A DNA stretch of 64,000 nucleotides, from contig NZ_JABRVQ010000001.1 in NCBI RefSeq assembly GCF_013248965.1, positions 62,001 through 126,000 of the forward strand. Reading direction: 5' to 3'. The notes below the pieces were generated by a model. The model did no database searches, was not told the origin of the DNA, and saw only the letters and a program-made list of their open reading frames with translations. The translations under genes were made by a program, and so were the position numbers. Below are positions 10,087 through 18,180 of this stretch, piece after piece. Numbering within the stretch: the first letter of the stretch is position 1; every line of letters starts with the position of its first letter. Source of the stretch: Psychrobacter okhotskensis (GTDB lineage: Bacteria > Pseudomonadota > Gammaproteobacteria > Pseudomonadales > Moraxellaceae).

Positions 10087-13032
10087 ATGAGTAACCCTGA
10101 TAGCAAAAATAATTTAACCCAATCGATTCAAGCTGCCTTAAGCCAATTAGAAAACGCCTACAATCCAAGCGATGTCGAAGCAGGCATGTATCAAGGCTGG
10201 GAAGACAGTGGTTATTTTAAGCCAAGCTTTGATAAAGATGAATCGTTTTCTATTGCTTTGCCACCGCCAAACGTCACCGGCTCGCTACATATGGGACACG
10301 GTTTCAATAACGCCATTATGGACGCATTGACGCGTTATCACCGTATGGATGGTGACAATACCTTGTGGCAACCGGGTACCGATCATGCAGGTATCGCGAC
10401 CCAAATGGTCGTCGAGCGTCGTCTAGAAGCGCAAGGTATTAAGCGCCGCGATATGACGCGAGAAGACTTCATCGATAAGGTGTGGGAATGGAAAGAAGAG
10501 TCGGGTGACAATATCACCCGTCAAATTCGTCGGCTTGGTAGCTCGGTCGATTGGTCGCGTGAGCGCTTTACCATGGATGATGGTTTATCCAATGCGGTCA
10601 AAGAAGTGTTCGTGCGTCTGTTCGATGAAGGACTTATTTATCGCGGTAAGCGTTTGGTCAATTGGGATCCGAAGTTCCAAACTGCACTATCGGATTTAGA
10701 AGTCGAAAACCATGATGAAAAAGGCAGCTTGTGGCATTTCCGCTATCATTTCACGGATGCAGACCTAACGACCCAAGATGGCAAAAACTATCTGGTCGTC
10801 GCCACCACACGTCCTGAGACTTTACTCGGTGATACCGCTGTCGCAGTCAATCCTAGCGATGAACGTTATGCGCATTTGGTTGGTAAAACGATTACCTTAC
10901 CAATTACGGGTCGCGTCGTGCCTATCGTCGCTGATGATTATGTCGAAAAAGACTTTGGTACGGGTTGCGTAAAAATCACCCCAGCTCATGATTTTAATGA
11001 TTATGACCTCGGTCGTCGTCATAGCTTGCCATTGATTAATATCCTTGATGAGCGCGCTAATATCTTAGCTGACATGGAGGTCTACGCTGACTTGCAAGTG
11101 CGTGAGCCAGAGCTAGAGACCACGCCTAGCGAGTATGCAGGACTTGAGCGTTTTGCCGCACGTAAGTTCCTTGTGGCGCAAGCAGGCGAGCAGGGCTGGC
11201 TAGAAGATATCGAAGACTACGCACTAAAAGCTCCGCGTGCTGAGCGTGGCGGTACGATCGTTGAGCCGTGGTTGACCGATCAGTGGTATGTCGCTGTTAA
11301 AGAGCTGGCCAAGCCTGCGATTGACGCGGTAGAAGACGGCAGCATCGAGTTCGTCCCTGCGCAGTACAAAAACATGTATATGTCGTGGATGACCGATCTG
11401 CAAGATTGGTGTATCAGCCGTCAGTTGTGGTGGGGACATCGTATCCCTGCATGGTATGACGATGCGACGGGTGAAATCTATGTCGCCCGTGACGAAGCCG
11501 AAGTACGTAGCAAGTACAGTCTCAGCGATGATATCGTATTGCGCCAAGATAATGATGTGCTCGATACGTGGTTCAGCTCTGGTCTATGGACGTTCAGTAC
11601 GCTTGACTGGGCAGACGTCAACGCCGATCCACGCGTGATGGACACCTTTCACCCGACCAGCGTGTTGGTGACAGGTTTTGATATTATCTTCTTTTGGGTA
11701 GCCCGCATGATCATGATGACCATGCACTTCGTGAAAAACGAAGATGGCACGCCGCAAGTACCGTTTAAGACCGTTTATGTGCATGGTCTGGTACGTGATG
11801 GCAATGGTCAAAAAATGTCAAAATCAAAAGGCAACGTCTTAGATCCGATTGACCTTATCGATGGTATTGAGCTAGAAGCACTGGTAGAAAAACGCACCAG
11901 CAATATGATGAATCCAAAAGACGCGGCCAAAATCGAAAAGCAAACGCGTAAAGAGTTCCCAGAAGGAATCCCAGCCTATGGTACGGATGCACTGCGCTTT
12001 ACCTTTACCTCGCTTGCCAGTACGGGTCGCGATATCAACTTTGATCTAAAGCGTGTCGAGGGCTATCGTAACTTCTGTAATAAAATCTGGAACGCCAGCC
12101 GTTTTGTACTGATGAACTGTGTTGATGGTGACAGCAACGCCAAGCCTATCGACCAAACGGCGAATCCTGATGTATGGGAATTGCCAGAAAAATGGATCAT
12201 GAGTCGTCTGAACTCTAGTATCAAAGACATTCATCAGCATTTCGCTCAGTATCGTCTCGATATGGTCAGCCAAGATATCTATGAGTTCATCTGGAATGAG
12301 TACTGTGATTGGTACGTTGAGCTTGCCAAAGCCAGCCTAAATGATGATTCGGTATCGGATACGCGTAAAGCGCAAATCCGCTATGTACTACTGCACGTAC
12401 TAGAGACTGTGCTACGCTTCACCCATCCAATCATGCCGTATCTGACTGAGCAAATCTGGCAGACGGTTGCACCGCTATTGGGTCGTAAAAATACCGACAG
12501 CATTGTCGTTGCTGACTATCCACAAACCGATAATGCAAAAATCAGTGAGCAAACTGAGGCAGATATGGCGTGGCTTCAAGAGCTTATTGCGAGCGTGCGT
12601 AACATTCGTGGTGAGATGAAACTGGGTAATGCGGTACGTCTGCCAGTATTACTACAAAATATCTCTAGCGATGAAGATGCGCGCCTATCACGTATCAAAA
12701 ATCAGTTCAAAGCGCTTGCCAAAGTTGACAGCTTAACTATCCTCAAAGACGGCGATGAGGTTCCGCTATCCTCATCAAGTATGGTCGGTCAGCTGCGCGT
12801 CCTTGTCCCGATGAAAGGTCTGATTGATCCAACGGCTGAGCTGGCACGTTTGGGTAAGTCATATGATAAGCTGAAAGGTCAAGCAGAAGGTATCTCGCGT
12901 AAGCTAGGTAATGAAGGCTTTGTCAGTAAAGCGCCTGCGGAAGTGGTCTATGTTGAAAAGGCGAAATTGGCTGAGCTAGAAGGGCAGTTGACGGCGATGA
13001 CGGCGCAGATGGAGCAGTTGAAAGCGTTGTAA
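10087..13032 (+). CDS. valS: Valyl-tRNA synthetase ValS
   Basis: This enzyme charges tRNA-Val with valine in the cytoplasm. The class I signature [15 protein letters not shown] lies near residue 58 and [12 protein letters not shown] near 577; between them is the CP1 editing domain ([13 protein letters not shown] near 240). The anticodon-binding domain follows, and the C-terminal 65 residues form the coiled-coil arm, ending [12 protein letters not shown]. At 981 residues the protein is slightly longer than the E. coli enzyme. The start at 10087 is supported by GAGAGCCTT just upstream. A second, divergent copy of the last ~115 bases of this gene is found at 14431-14544, beyond two accessory genes. 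Confidence 0.99.
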
Positions 13033-13067
13033 GAAAATTGACTATAACCAGTATGAAGGCCTAGATA

Positions 13068-13280
13068 ATGTGGGATGAATTTGTCAATAGAGGTAGCATT
13101 TTTGCCAATATATGGCATGGCTTTAAAGTCATACTGGTTTTTTGCCTGCTATTCTTAATCATGTGGAAATTTGCAGGTATGGCAACAGCGATAGGAACTA
13201 TCGCTGTTGCTATTATTATGACCACTCTTATTACTTTTGCTTATAAAAAATTATATGAAGAGCTTGATGATTTTGAGTAG
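13068..13280 (+). CDS. Small two-helix membrane protein, unknown
   Basis: The protein has 70 residues and two predicted membrane helices (about 19-36 and 38-57), with a short acidic C-terminus (YEELDDFE). I do not recognise a family. It starts 35 bases after the valS stop, so it could be translated from the valS transcript or from its own promoter. It lies inside the segment bounded by the two valS tails and is more AT-rich than valS, as is the larger membrane protein downstream, which suggests that the two arrived together. The Shine-Dalgarno sequence is weak, so the call as a gene is moderate. Confidence 0.6.
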   Translation: MWDEFVNRGSIFANIWHGFKVILVFCLLFLIMWKFAGMATAIGTIAVAIIMTTLITFAYKKLYEELDDFE

Positions 13281-13412
13281 CTTTTGTAGGTTAAGTTAGC
13301 TCAAGCGTAACCCACCAATCTACTCTTATAAACTTAAATATGTCAGTTACTATATATCCTTCCATCTAAATTCTAACTTAATCTATTCATAACACCTCAT
13401 CAAATTTGGAAA

Positions 13413-14411
13413 ATGCTTATGGATAGTATCTATTTCAAGCTAGTCATTATCGTTCTGCTGCTGGCTATCCCTAGCTATTTTTTATATCGAAGCAAGGCAA
13501 AAGATGCTCCGAAGTATAGACAGTTAAAAACCTATGCCAATATCGCTTACGATAGAGAAGAGTATTACGAGAGCAGCTTTAAAAGTGCTGCATTATATCT
13601 ATTTACTGTAGGCAGTCATGAAGCTTCAGTAAAAAGCAGACATTCTTATGATAATAGCTACGAGCAATATAGTTTTATTTTTAATAAAGTCACTGAGTTA
13701 CAAGAAAGAATTAACTTGAGTATTTCCAAGTTAGAGCAGAATATTGCTCTTATCATCAGAGAGTTAAAAGCAAGTAGCCGCTTAGTCAACAATACAACCA
13801 CGATAAAAATAGCGATAGAAGAAGTCAAAAATACCGAAAAAATAGACAGACAGGTTCATATGATTGAGGGTCTTGGCTTTACCAAAGTCGCTAGGCTAAA
13901 AACATGGTTTCCGTCATTCTCAATATTCATCGGTATCATGGCAGTGCTACTAGCGATCATGGTCATTTGGTTCTTGCTGTTAGCTTTGGGTGGTAGCGGT
14001 ACAACTCTGATAAGCTACTTACTGGTTTTGGCTATCATGATCATACCGACAGTCGCATTTTCGGCATTTAAGTCTCGCTCCAACATTAAGAAATTTAATC
14101 AGCAAAATGATGTATTAATAGAAAAAAGAAAATCTATCTTAGATAATTTGGAAAAATTAGAGAATACCATCATCCTACTCAATACGAGCAATCGCGAGTT
14201 AGAGTCATATTGCAATGAGATAGCTATTGTCAATAAAGAGGTCACTGGCGTGCTCTATCAAGATAGTGCGTATATCAAGGCAGCGAGGAAGTCGAAGGCT
14301 TTGTTTAAAAAGAATGATTATAGTAAAGAGGAAATCGATTTATCCGATAAGATAAATACGGTGGTTGATGGTTTGAGGAGAGAGATAGCGTTTAGTCAGT
14401 TGTTGGGTTAG
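13413..14411 (+). CDS. Membrane protein with coiled coils, unknown
   Basis: This 332-residue protein has an N-terminal membrane helix (about 7-23), a soluble region with heptad-like Leu/Ile spacing (about 85-125), two adjacent membrane helices (about 168-192 and 198-216) and a second coiled-coil stretch (about 230-275). No catalytic motif is visible and I do not recognise the family. ATG 13419 is an alternative start with slightly better spacing to GGA. Codon use and base composition are AT-rich compared with valS. It lies with the 70-residue protein between the valS stop and the duplicated valS tail, so both belong to one inserted block. Any envelope or defence role is inference from location only. 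Confidence 0.75.
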   Translation: MLMDSIYFKLVIIVLLLAIPSYFLYRSKAKDAPKYRQLKTYANIAYDREEYYESSFKSAALYLFTVGSHEASVKSRHSYDNSYEQYSFIFNKVTELQERINLSISKLEQNIALIIRELKASSRLVNNTTTIKIAIEEVKNTEKIDRQVHMIEGLGFTKVARLKTWFPSFSIFIGIMAVLLAIMVIWFLLLALGGSGTTLISYLLVLAIMIIPTVAFSAFKSRSNIKKFNQQNDVLIEKRKSILDNLEKLENTIILLNTSNRELESYCNEIAIVNKEVTGVLYQDSAYIKAARKSKALFKKNDYSKEEIDLSDKINTVVDGLRREIAFSQLLG

Positions 14412-14430
14412 CATGTAAGTTGTTTTGAGA

Positions 14431-14544
14431 TTTGTCGATAAAACGCTAGCTGAAATTGTTGATGCTGAAAAGGCAAAACTGGCTGAGCTAGAAGGGCAGT
14501 TGATGGCTATGACAGCGCAGATGGAAGAGTTAGAGGCGTTGTAG
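14431..14544 (+). pseudogene. Duplicated, diverged 3' end of valS
   Basis: Translated in frame, this stretch ends [12 protein letters not shown], then MAMTAQMEELEAL and a stop; the true valS ends [12 protein letters not shown], then [13 protein letters not shown]. Many of the differences are at third codon positions (GCG/GCA, TTG/CTG, GCG/GCT, ACG/ACA, GAG/GAA), the pattern of selected coding divergence rather than neutral decay. This tail therefore was part of a functional valS in some lineage until recently. There is no start codon or upstream part, so it is a remnant. Homology begins near 14431 (TTTGTCGATAAAACG against TTTGTCAGTAAAGCG) and stops at the stop codon. Confidence 0.9.
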
Positions 14545-14720
14545 AGTTACTTTTCATATCAAATAGTTGCGTGTGGATATTTATTAAAGAATTAATGTTC
14601 GACAAGAAGAACGTTAAATGTTAATTTAAAGCAGGTTTTTGGTAAAAATAGCCATAAACCCTTATTGAATTATACTTATTGTTAGTAAAGTTAAACTGCT
14701 TTATATGTGGAAATACAATT

Positions 14721-16049
14721 ATGTTAGTCGAATTTTCAGTCGAAAACTTCAAGTCGATCAAAGAAGTGCAAGTATTATCTATGGTTAAAGCCATAGGTAA
14801 TAAAATGCCTGATAACTATTTCGATTCTCGAGCTCTGTCAGTTCCAGAGCTATTGAAAACAGCTGTGATTTATGGAGCGAATGCTTCAGGTAAATCGAAT
14901 ATTCTGAAAGCTATGTTCCAAATGAAAAGTATTCTCAAAAATTCATTTAATAAGGAGTTAGATGAAAATATTCCTATTACTCCTTTTTTATTTAGTCCCC
15001 TATCAAAGTTAGAGCCAACAACATTCAATATTTCTTTCGTTATGAATCTACCTGACGAAGAGGAATATAAACCAACATTAGTTGAATATGGTTTTTCGGC
15101 AGATAGAAAGCAGGTTTATGAAGAATGGTTAAGTGTTTATCCTAAAGGTCGTGAGCAGGGGTGGTTTCATCGTTTATATGACAATGAAAGTAAAGAGTAT
15201 ACTTGGAGTGAGTCATCTTTTTTCAAAGGTCAAAAAAATACTTGGAAAAACAATACACGCTCTGATCAATTATTTTTATCTACTGCTGTGCACCTGAATA
15301 GTAAGCAACTCAAACCTATTTATGATGTACTTATGGACAACATTATAATTATTAGTGAAGATAGGATTGGCGATAAGCTTACTAAGGAATTCTGTAAAAA
15401 TGACGAAAGAGATAAAAAGTTAATACTATCTTTGATGCAAAGTTCTGATATTGATGTTGATGATATTGTTTTTGAAAAAACTAAAATAAACTCTATAAAG
15501 TTTCCTAAAGATATGCCATTAGAAATTCAAAAGGAGCTTTCGAAACGTATTCATGAAGAGCATGTAGATGAAGTTTTTTTCATCCACACTGATGAAGAAG
15601 GTAATGATGTGAAGATTATACTTCATGATGAGTCTGACGGTACTCAAAAAATGTTTGAGTTTTCTTCATTGATCTTTTCCTCACTAAGGAATGGTGGATT
15701 GCTTATAATTGATGAGTTTAATAAAAGCTTACATCCTGATTTAGTAAGATTTTTAGTTAAGCTGTTCAATTCTGAACAAAATTCAGGTAATGGACAATTG
15801 ATTTTCACAACGCATGAAACCTCAATACTACGCCGAGATCTTTTGCGTCGAGACCAAATCTGGTTTTGTGAAAAGGGAAAAGAAAAATCTACTAATTTAT
15901 TCTCTCTTAGTAAATTCACTTCTCGTGATGATGGTAGAGAAGATATTGAGGAATATTATCTACATGGCCGCTACGGTGCTAAACCGATCATTAGTGACCT
16001 CATTTTTCATGATTCCAAACAAAAAATATTAGAAGAAGTGGATAAGTAA
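14721..16049 (+). CDS. RloA-like AAA/SMC-type ATPase (candidate phage-defence component)
   Basis: This is a 442-residue ABC/SMC-type ATPase of the AAA_15/AAA_21 kind. MLVEFSVENFKSIKE opens the fold, Walker A is GANASGKS at residues 52-59, and a Walker B/D-loop region reads LLIIDEFNKSLHPDL near 328-342, followed by the switch histidine in FTTHET. The open frame extends upstream to a TTG at 14679, but the family start motif and a GGAAA upstream favour ATG 14721. The stop overlaps the start of the RloB gene, so the two are translationally coupled. Such ATPase plus Toprim-like pairs include AbiL and PARIS; RloA/RloB were first named as genes linked to restriction loci. The role in defence is inferred. 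Confidence 0.88.
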   Translation: MLVEFSVENFKSIKEVQVLSMVKAIGNKMPDNYFDSRALSVPELLKTAVIYGANASGKSNILKAMFQMKSILKNSFNKELDENIPITPFLFSPLSKLEPTTFNISFVMNLPDEEEYKPTLVEYGFSADRKQVYEEWLSVYPKGREQGWFHRLYDNESKEYTWSESSFFKGQKNTWKNNTRSDQLFLSTAVHLNSKQLKPIYDVLMDNIIIISEDRIGDKLTKEFCKNDERDKKLILSLMQSSDIDVDDIVFEKTKINSIKFPKDMPLEIQKELSKRIHEEHVDEVFFIHTDEEGNDVKIILHDESDGTQKMFEFSSLIFSSLRNGGLLIIDEFNKSLHPDLVRFLVKLFNSEQNSGNGQLIFTTHETSILRRDLLRRDQIWFCEKGKEKSTNLFSLSKFTSRDDGREDIEEYYLHGRYGAKPIISDLIFHDSKQKILEEVDK

Positions 16050-16741
16050 TGAGTAAAAAAAATACAGGTCGACCTTTTACTCGACAACAAAACGAGGTCG
16101 AAAGACATGATAGAGTGTTGATAGTTTGTGAAGATAGTAAGTCAAGCCCAAACTATTTTGAAGAGTTAGTTAAGTATGAAAGACTATCCTCTGTTGATGT
16201 TAAGATCACTGGAGACTGTGGATCAGACCCTATATCTGTAGTCAACAAAGCAATTGAATTGTACGAGGAGAGTATAAATGATAATAACTTAGCCTCTACA
16301 TTTGATATGGTTTATTGTGTGATTGATAGAGATGGCCATCAAAATTTTGAACAGGCCATAGACAAGCTCAATAGTCATAGTAGAAATGGTAAACCGTTCC
16401 ATATGGTTCGCTCATACCCTTGTTTTGAATTTTGGTATTTATGCCATTTTATTTTTACAAGAACAAGTATTGGTAATACAGGAACTAAAAGTTCCGCTGA
16501 TAAATGCATTCAACTTTTAAACAAAGAGTGGGGATCCATTTCTAGGAAAAAGTATGACAAGAGTCAAACAGGAATTTATAGACTACTTTATAGCAAATTA
16601 AAGGTAGCAATGGGAAATGCTAAGGGTACTCTTAAAGCAGCAATAGATACTAACGAAATGAATCCATCTACTGAGGTTCATGAACTTGTTCAATATCTGA
16701 TAGATATCAGAAGTACATCAAACACCAAACTTAACAGATAA
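16049..16741 (+). CDS. rloB: RloB family Toprim-like protein (candidate effector nuclease)
   Basis: The 230-residue protein shows the RloB pattern: VLIVCEDSKSSPNYFEEL with the acidic residue E28, then VIDRDGH with D93 and D95 forming the Toprim-type DxD, then YPCFEFWYLCHF, a family hallmark. These residues would bind metal for nuclease activity, as in the related AriB (DUF4435) effector of PARIS. In the usual family sequence CEG is common where this protein has CED. It overlaps the ATPase gene by one base (TAATG). A terminator hairpin follows at 16794. The base composition is low GC compared with valS, consistent with acquisition. The effector role is inference. Confidence 0.85.
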   Translation: MSKKNTGRPFTRQQNEVERHDRVLIVCEDSKSSPNYFEELVKYERLSSVDVKITGDCGSDPISVVNKAIELYEESINDNNLASTFDMVYCVIDRDGHQNFEQAIDKLNSHSRNGKPFHMVRSYPCFEFWYLCHFIFTRTSIGNTGTKSSADKCIQLLNKEWGSISRKKYDKSQTGIYRLLYSKLKVAMGNAKGTLKAAIDTNEMNPSTEVHELVQYLIDIRSTSNTKLNR

Positions 16742-16793
16742 AAATAGCTTTTTCTTAATGTTTGATCTAAAAATATAAATATATTTGTAAAGA

Positions 16794-16826
16794 GCCGCTC
16801 AAAGCCTAAATGGTGAGCGGTTTTTT
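16794..16826 (+). terminator. Rho-independent terminator after rloB
   Basis: CCGCTCA pairs with TGAGCGG across a 12-base loop, followed by TTTTTT. It closes the rloA-rloB unit and separates it from the TerD-VWA gene. Confidence 0.8.
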
Positions 16827-16884
16827 AATGTCAGTAATTAGTCTATTATCTTTAAAGGAATAACAAGCTAACGTAAGGAACATC

Positions 16885-18180
16885 ATGAACCATCTCACCG
16901 TCGGACAACGCGCGCCTTTAAGCAACCTTGCTATTGACGATACTGCATCAATCACGCTTAAGTTCACTCGCCAAAGCCCAATAGAGATGGACATCAGCTG
17001 CTTTGCTTTAGACGCAGCGGGCAAACTGATCAATGATGATTACATGGTGTTTTATAATCAGCCAACCTCACCGTGCGGGCAAATCAAGCTCACTCATTAT
17101 GAGTCACAGCTAACGGCAAATAAAGGCATCCAAGCCGAGTTTGAGGTTAACTTATCCAAACTGGCTGCGAATATAGACAGCTTGTTTTTTGTGTTGTCAG
17201 CTGACACGCCGCTGAATCAAATTCAATCATTAGAGATTGGCATTTTGCAGCAGTCGCAAAAAGCGCAGGCAGCGTATCAAGCAGCAGACTTTGCTCAGCA
17301 GCAAGCCAGTATGCTGATGCAGCTGTATCGTAAGGGCGGCGTTTGGCGAGTATCTAACGTCGCGCAAGGCTTTAATGGTGGACTTGCCGCCATCGTGCAG
17401 CATTTCGGTGGTGACGTAGAAGAGAGTAGCCCACAGGTACTCGAGCCGACCGCCACGCCAGTGCAAGCAAAACCGTCGTTAGAGAAGGTCATGCTAGATA
17501 AAGCACCAAAACTGGTCAATCTAGCCAAAAAAGCCACCATATCACTTGAGAAACGCCAGTTGCAGCAATTGACCGCAAAGGTAGCACTGGTGTTAGATGC
17601 ATCAGGCTCAATGAACAGACAGTACAAAAAAGGCCGAGTGCAAGAGGTAGTCAATCGCATATTGCCATTGGCAGTGAACTTTGATGACGACCAAGCACTA
17701 GACTGCTGGGCGTTTGCCCGAGATCCGCAGTATTTGGGCGAGATTGGACTGAGCAACTATGACGGTTTTATTAACAACGCTCATGGCGGCTGGCGCAAAT
17801 GGGAGCTGGGCGCACGTACTAATAATGAGGCAGGGGTGATGAAAGCGGTTACTGATTTTTATCAGAATGATGGACTCAACGTTCCCGTTTATATTTTATT
17901 CATCAGTGATGGCGGGGTGCGAGATACGCGTGGCATTACTAAAATCATGACTGAAGCGGCGAAGCTTCCTATATTCTGGCAATTCGTTGGTTTGGGTGGT
18001 CGCAGTTACGGCATATTAAAAGACTTAGATGATATGACTGGACGACTGCTTGATAATTGCAGCTTTTTTGAATTAGACGATTTGGATGATGTTAGCGAAG
18101 AAGCTTTATATGAAAATATGCTAGAAGAGTTTCCAAGCTGGCTCAAAGAAGCTCGTAAGATTGGATTGATAGCAAAGTAA
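16885..18180 (+). CDS. TerD-like domain fused to von Willebrand A domain (TerF-like)
   Basis: Residues 1-178 resemble TerD/stress proteins, ending with the family motif YRKGGVWRVSNVAQGFNGGL. A linker with Pro and Thr (180-200) leads to a VWA domain at about 230-420. The metal site (MIDAS) DASGS is at 238-242 in LVLDASGSMNRQ, and a further conserved FISDGGVRD appears near 340. TerD domains bind calcium, and TerD-VWA (TerF-type) proteins belong to tellurite/stress systems linked to phage and colicin resistance. No other ter gene is adjacent, so this is an orphan member. The start follows ACGTAAGGAACATC, a good Shine-Dalgarno sequence. It directly follows the RloAB unit. Confidence 0.88.
   Translation: MNHLTVGQRAPLSNLAIDDTASITLKFTRQSPIEMDISCFALDAAGKLINDDYMVFYNQPTSPCGQIKLTHYESQLTANKGIQAEFEVNLSKLAANIDSLFFVLSADTPLNQIQSLEIGILQQSQKAQAAYQAADFAQQQASMLMQLYRKGGVWRVSNVAQGFNGGLAAIVQHFGGDVEESSPQVLEPTATPVQAKPSLEKVMLDKAPKLVNLAKKATISLEKRQLQQLTAKVALVLDASGSMNRQYKKGRVQEVVNRILPLAVNFDDDQALDCWAFARDPQYLGEIGLSNYDGFINNAHGGWRKWELGARTNNEAGVMKAVTDFYQNDGLNVPVYILFISDGGVRDTRGITKIMTEAAKLPIFWQFVGLGGRSYGILKDLDDMTGRLLDNCSFFELDDLDDVSEEALYENMLEEFPSWLKEARKIGLIAK

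Follow-up and report, generated by a model that had tools for sequence, protein, structure and literature searches.

Psychrobacter genomes carry diverse cargo, including defence-like and membrane-protein genes, between valS and its right-hand flank and, as judged from genome sequences, in about one quarter of them the valS-adjacent cargo is closed by a partial copy of the 3' end of valS. Such a spare valS end probably lets ordinary recombination slot a block of genes in without an integrase. It is likely, in our estimation, that the locus is an integrase-free cassette site, where insertion with a long target duplication of variable length would be followed by spread through homologous recombination, with the valS end and TerF as arms. 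Variable blocks, defence genes included, often swap at fixed spots without an integrase, and their means of movement can rarely be made out. At valS the joins are marked by pieces of the core gene itself, and past exchanges become readable base by base.

Layout of the valS-TerF interval

In the window, i.e. the whole stretch of 64,000 nucleotides from Psychrobacter okhotskensis that was analyzed, the site presented the following features:

10087..13032, + strand: valS, intact (981-aa ORF), the left-hand core gene of the site
12919..13032, + strand: valS 3' end, the first tail (direct repeat)
13068..13280, + strand: 70-aa ORF from the ORF list, likely membrane protein, cargo
13419..14411, + strand: 330-aa ORF, helical, likely membrane protein, cargo (homologue search)
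14431..14544, + strand: partial copy of the valS 3' end, the second tail, without an own-lineage start codon and partly decayed
14545..14720, + strand: spacer after the second tail, with nothing similar among the other 100 regions
14721..16049, + strand: AbiLi-like ATPase (PADLOC AbiLi E 2e-90; Pfam AAA_21 E 3.6e-36)
16049..16741, + strand: AbiLii / RloB-like protein (PADLOC AbiLii E 4.7e-23; Pfam RloB E 1.1e-35)
16813..16884, + strand: conserved pre-TerF stretch with matches in 26 other regions, right edge of the accessory block (its start at 16813 is approximate)
16885..18180, + strand: TerF-like gene (TerD + vWA by Pfam), the right-hand core gene where present

The accessory block comprised positions 13033-16812, since the AbiLi/AbiLii pair stands between the second tail and the TerF leader (~16813); the second tail was located inside the block and not at its end. 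An earlier note on this DNA had placed two unknown membrane-protein genes exactly between the two tails; both ORFs were indeed there, but accessory DNA continued past the second tail with the AbiLi/AbiLii genes. These two ORFs were adjacent (14721-16741) and constituted a complete-looking pair of putative phage-defence genes, defence-like by profile match. Relatives of AbiLi were present in 17 of the 104 other genus genomes searched, at identities of at most 42% and never beside valS.

The larger cargo ORF between the tails (13413-14411) extended over 332 aa from its first start; homologues begin with MDS or MDN, so its start is probably the ATG at 13419, two codons later, giving 330 aa. Nine of the 105 Psychrobacter genomes carried this gene, always <1 kb behind valS and with differing genes ahead. 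The tail following it was clear in the window, weak in G030 and G072 and unrecognisable in the other six, and in G098 the gene was followed by one of the valS flank types. The predicted structure of the protein was of low confidence (pLDDT 46), and no solved structure matched it. The 70-aa ORF was not found at this place in any other compared genome, one weak match appearing elsewhere in G026 (E 8.1e-4). A scan for terminator-like sites found none between valS and this ORF, the scan as a whole giving no more sites than expected by chance; to judge from this and from the short gap, the valS promoter may also drive the cargo adjacent to the gene. A coding role for the tail copy itself is unlikely.

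Frequency of extra valS tails

The C-terminus of valS was found in 101 of 105 Psychrobacter genomes. For 100 genomes the regions analyzed comprised valS with as much as 12 kb of downstream sequence, and the window served for its own genome. Extra tails were sought between the valS stop and TerF, or within 9 kb in regions lacking TerF, the queries being all 100 readable valS tails (the valS stop of G087 was unreadable). At E ≤ 1e-4, plus-strand matches appeared in 27 regions and minus-strand matches in 0. With G048 dropped from the count, its match being its own frame-broken valS end, an extra valS tail was present downstream, always on the same strand, in 26 of the 100 genomes with a readable valS end (21 of the 84 with at least 2600 nt downstream). 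Weak matches in G030 and G072 (E > 1e-4) and in G042 (weak, minus strand) were also dropped, G055 and G070 being among the weakest kept. No extra tail at E ≤ 1e-4 occurred in 74 of the 100 genomes, 16 of the 100 having <2600 nt downstream. Genomes with a single tail therefore exist, as the earlier note had anticipated, and most relatives lack the order with both tails, so the objection that most of them might share it fails.

Chance similarity was rejected by the strand bias and by the 0 extra matches that shuffled tails and two internal valS segments gave in the same regions. A general habit of gene ends was likewise rejected, as the C-termini of two control genes, found in 104 and 105 of 105 genomes and taken to encode an M16-type peptidase and CoaBC, respectively, had no second copy downstream; the second hits that did occur came from a single gene matched in pieces, from a break between contigs, or from one remote location. 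An assembly artefact is unlikely, tails being present in the one- or two-contig genomes G089, G002, G010, and G013. The valS frame was interrupted in L124 (G075), L128 (G050), and L193 (G048), with completeness of 84-86%, perhaps through sequencing errors.

Outside the genus, a valS end from Acinetobacter was used as query against 328 genomes of the family, of which 319 gave a match. Five of the 155 genomes in group g15, which holds Acinetobacter, displayed more than one match, the extra one being ~0.56-0.77 kb downstream of the valS match and on the same strand. As cargo, three of these genomes carried a methyltransferase-like gene, one a toxin-antitoxin-like pair, and one a 200-aa ORF. All listed matching genomes outside g15 and Psychrobacter showed a single match, with a query that is less sensitive there. 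Among 80 named loci, a same-strand downstream tail was present in five, corresponding to four Psychrobacter and L017 (A. nosocomialis GNU001), which has the same coordinates as G205, one of the five g15 genomes. In L017, a decayed valS tail copy was observed ~0.67-0.87 kb behind valS, after a methyltransferase-like gene on the opposite strand.

Sequence and constraint of the tail copies

The last ~115 bases of valS recur at 14431-14544, in frame and with their own stop (TAG), which confirmed the observation in the earlier note over 114 compared positions. A repeat search delimited the pair as 12919-13031 / 14431-14543 (113 nt ungapped, 81% identity), and the own genome contained two matches only, valS itself and the copy (E 4.5e-25), without a third. 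Over the 114 ungapped positions 22 differences were counted, divided into 7, 4, and 11 at first, second, and third codon positions, respectively, so the statement that the two differ largely at third positions was only half true. For the whole set, functional valS tails and their nearest relatives differed by codon position in proportions of 148:65:568, vs. 111:72:186 for extra tails and their nearest functional tail (30 stretches in 28 genomes, weak ones included), and both distributions were different (chi-square p 1.4e-13). Read in this way, the copies are of coding ancestry but, pooled, under relaxed constraint, and their partial decay speaks against the copy having been kept as coding sequence.

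All 25 copies and 24 of 25 in-gene tails (24 genomes; G042, G048, G030, G072, G055, and G081 left out) were closer to the eight nearest genomes of the host than to the rest. In the window, the near-minus-far value was 0.059 for the in-gene tail, which looks native, and 0.023 for the copy, which looks so more weakly; the neighbour analysis gave no age order for these two tails. The suggestion that the copy descends from a functional valS of another lineage held as to coding ancestry, but an origin in another lineage did not emerge from this comparison, in which the window copy looks weakly native. G100 was the exception: its in-gene tail looks foreign and its copy native. A displaced native tail left behind by a new in-gene one, as had been proposed for the window, is the pattern of G100 and is not shown by the window.

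Cargo and flanks of the site

The cargo behind valS differed among genomes, in agreement with the earlier view of the valS 3' end as an insertion hotspot with variable cargo. TerF was the right neighbour in 47 of 101 regions, the others ending in other genes or contig ends. In tail-bearing genomes the cargo adjacent to valS often belonged to few families, namely 11 (a 108-aa membrane-like protein), 19 (Na+/H+ antiporter), 20 (NYN-domain protein), and 13 (the 330-aa protein of the window), or was a stem-loop spacer. The smallest gene-bearing cassettes measured ~340 bp and held the family 11 gene alone, and some tails were preceded by ~130-180 bp with only a stem-loop. Genes behind the tails were diverse. 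Twenty proteins were hand-picked from 204 ORF clusters (valS-adjacent, behind a tail, and from tail-less genomes); 14 of the 20 passed the Pfam cut-off, including AAA_15, GmrSD, TIR, SIR2-STAND, kinase, and RelA/SpoT-like, and five of 10 proteins matched in PADLOC at E ≤ 1e-10.

The position of families 10, 22, and 36 varied, some genomes having them after a tail and others immediately after valS. The same inner cassette preceded different outer genes in different genomes, and G026 stacked two cassettes in a row, each with its own tail. Of the flanks found behind extra tails, 14/26 clustered with flanks that directly follow valS elsewhere and 12/26, the window's included, matched no valS flank; for the window, the compared regions yielded neither a matching empty site nor a donor or a shared flank. 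Family 11 had no tail right behind it in five of 11 genomes. Tails are not needed for turnover, since the 74 of 100 genomes without an extra tail also vary in cargo.

Tail edges and search for integrases

Extra tails were ~58-190 nt long and most of them reached the valS stop. The left edge differed between cargo families and was mostly constant within each of them, to about a dozen bases (all six tails of family 11, all three of family 20, and four of the five of family 19, the fifth having another edge). With several left edges within valS, a fixed crossover core was absent. The recombinase search covered Phage_integrase in 14 tail-bearing genomes, with the listing read by eye; in 14/14 no such domain was found on the valS contig or, when it was on the same contig, within 200 kb of valS.

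Site-specific elements habitually insert at the 3' ends of core genes and restore the reading frame. Frame-restoring insertion at valS fits this habit, and the foreign-looking in-gene tail of G100 beside a native-looking copy would also suit integrative elements that attached at the 3' end of valS, each supplying a new tail, and later lost their integrases. A further point in favour is the listing of valS among the plasticity sites of Photorhabdus and Xenorhabdus (PMC3091717). Nevertheless, site-specific integration, one of the routes put forward in the earlier note, was unsupported, because tail copies start at several places in valS and no Phage_integrase was near it in any of the 14 genomes; cassettes down to ~340 bp with one 108-aa gene also argue against it, and we regard this explanation as improbable.

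The edges also bear on whether the second tail arose by local tandem duplication of the valS end, with cargo inserted later. The resemblance of both tails to those of the host's relatives would be compatible with such an origin. Against it, no bare adjacent tails occurred among the 26 tail-bearing genomes or in the 100 as a whole (the G048 match being its own broken valS end), the smallest spacing between tails was ~130-180 bp with a stem-loop, and the left edge goes with the cargo family, which makes a tandem duplication very hard to believe.

Exchange between species

In some pairs of species the cargo was 97-99.7% identical while valS was 81-93% identical, and in the clearest pairs the shared stretch began at a valS end and reached the second tail or TerF. 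An ORF family within the interval was shared in each of 375 pairs; the 53 with ORFs at least 88% identical were compared with valS, the 322 below this value being set aside. Cargo ORFs were more alike than valS in 48 of these 53 pairs and less alike in five, the pairs being non-independent and a few families possibly flank genes.

Tract edges were read for seven pairs. Between the valS stop and the TerF start, G050/G009 presented 0-2 mismatches per 60, vs. 2-15 upstream and 4-20 downstream. G100/G052 were nearly identical from ~130 nt behind the tail to the TerF start, with valS bodies 80.8% identical. In G029/G091, 0-3 mismatches per 60 extended from the valS stop into the second tail; in G091/G075 the values were the same, over a tract that opens with the last 60 nt of valS and stops where the second tail starts. 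Past these tracts the genes of both pairs were unrelated. G068/G015 was similar to these with blurred edges (cargo 97.1%), the tract of G084/G049 spanned roughly the whole interval, and G053/G075 had no sharp edges. From these edges, the tail and TerF have probably both been crossover places, which favours the homologous exchange with a donor that had been suggested as the other route.

The same tracts could be explained if only the flanking genes matter, with valS and TerF recombining as in minimal mobile elements and the tails remaining as passive scars. The tracts of G050/G009 and G084/G049, which cover approximately the whole interval, and that of G100/G052, ending at TerF, would agree with this, as would the 74/100 genomes without an extra tail and the decay of the tails. 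However, the stretch shared by G029/G091, by G091/G075, and by G068/G015 stops within or at the second tail and is followed by unrelated genes, and one inner cassette stands ahead of different outer genes; passive scars thus seem to us rather unlikely as the whole explanation.

DNA uptake is a possible route for these exchanges. The ComEC family was found in 103 of 105 genomes; as controls such as E. coli carry it too, its presence does not prove competence.

Proposed mechanism and known systems

In the cassette-site mechanism that we favour, a founding insertion would join cargo to a point inside the valS tail and leave a target duplication, whose length would be set by where the join fell. 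We infer this founding step from the variable tail edges, none having been seen among the genomes compared. Homology-facilitated illegitimate recombination during DNA uptake would be a candidate founding route. A cassette bracketed by valS ends could then be placed behind any valS by homologous recombination, whatever is downstream; cassettes could stack, and whole valS-TerF intervals would also be exchanged with TerF as the right arm. Under this scheme, the window would hold an inner cassette (70-aa ORF, 330-aa ORF, and tail) between valS and the AbiL pair.

A more tentative extension, to which we give somewhat less than an even chance, is that the extra tail acts as a self-carried homology arm that turns a gene into a portable, stackable cassette, with the valS end as a universal docking site in Psychrobacter and Acinetobacter. 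If true, this would be a recombinase-free counterpart of the integron array.

Insertion with long target duplication is ascribed to Nobusato et al. (2000) (PMC3031569, PMC4978471); as described in PMC3031569, the genes sit between long direct target copies of variable length, with no stated recombinase. The valS cargo similarly lies between two long direct copies, of variable length (~58-190 nt). That process is known there for restriction-modification genes, whereas the cargo of the window consists of membrane-like ORFs and the AbiL pair; the site would therefore work like long target duplication without being the restriction-modification form described. It also differs from the published accounts, as far as these passages go, in that the valS end is reused by varied cargo across two genera, and in the stacking of this cargo and its passage from one species to another.

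In the minimal mobile element of Neisseria, credited to Saunders and Snyder (2002) and Snyder et al. (2007), whole-gene cassettes are exchanged between two conserved genes via homologous recombination (PMC3082526). Varied cassettes between valS and TerF (TerF in 47/101 regions only) are comparable to that description, and so is the apparent recombination in the flanks, whose edges in G050/G009 fall at the valS end and at TerF and are less sharp in other pairs. In contrast, the valS interval holds a partial copy of a flank gene as a putative extra arm, and the Neisseria description in that source is without one. Homology-facilitated illegitimate recombination, homologous at one end and illegitimate at the other (PMC3240628), would give variable tail edges such as those observed, although as presented there it is a process and not an element.

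In Photorhabdus and Xenorhabdus, valS is listed as the site of a plasticity region in all four compared genomes (PMC3091717). The likeness to the present site is the region of plasticity at valS; the bacteria belong to another order, and tail copies go unmentioned in the passages of that paper on valS. Plasticity at valS is thus already known in print, and the open-licence literature, surveyed mostly by title, weakly suggests that tail copies at valS are unpublished.

Other sequence elements behind valS

A stretch of ~105 nt with stem-loop-like parts was present in 21 of 101 regions (e.g., L180, L172, and L176), mostly right behind valS, where it constitutes one of the flank types that directly follow this gene; in G030 and G098 it was located also or instead after the 330-aa gene. 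In L185 (G066), TerF seemed to have been deleted except for its 3' end, which was found ~330-480 nt behind valS and after a small membrane-protein gene, representing another gene-end remnant at the valS site.
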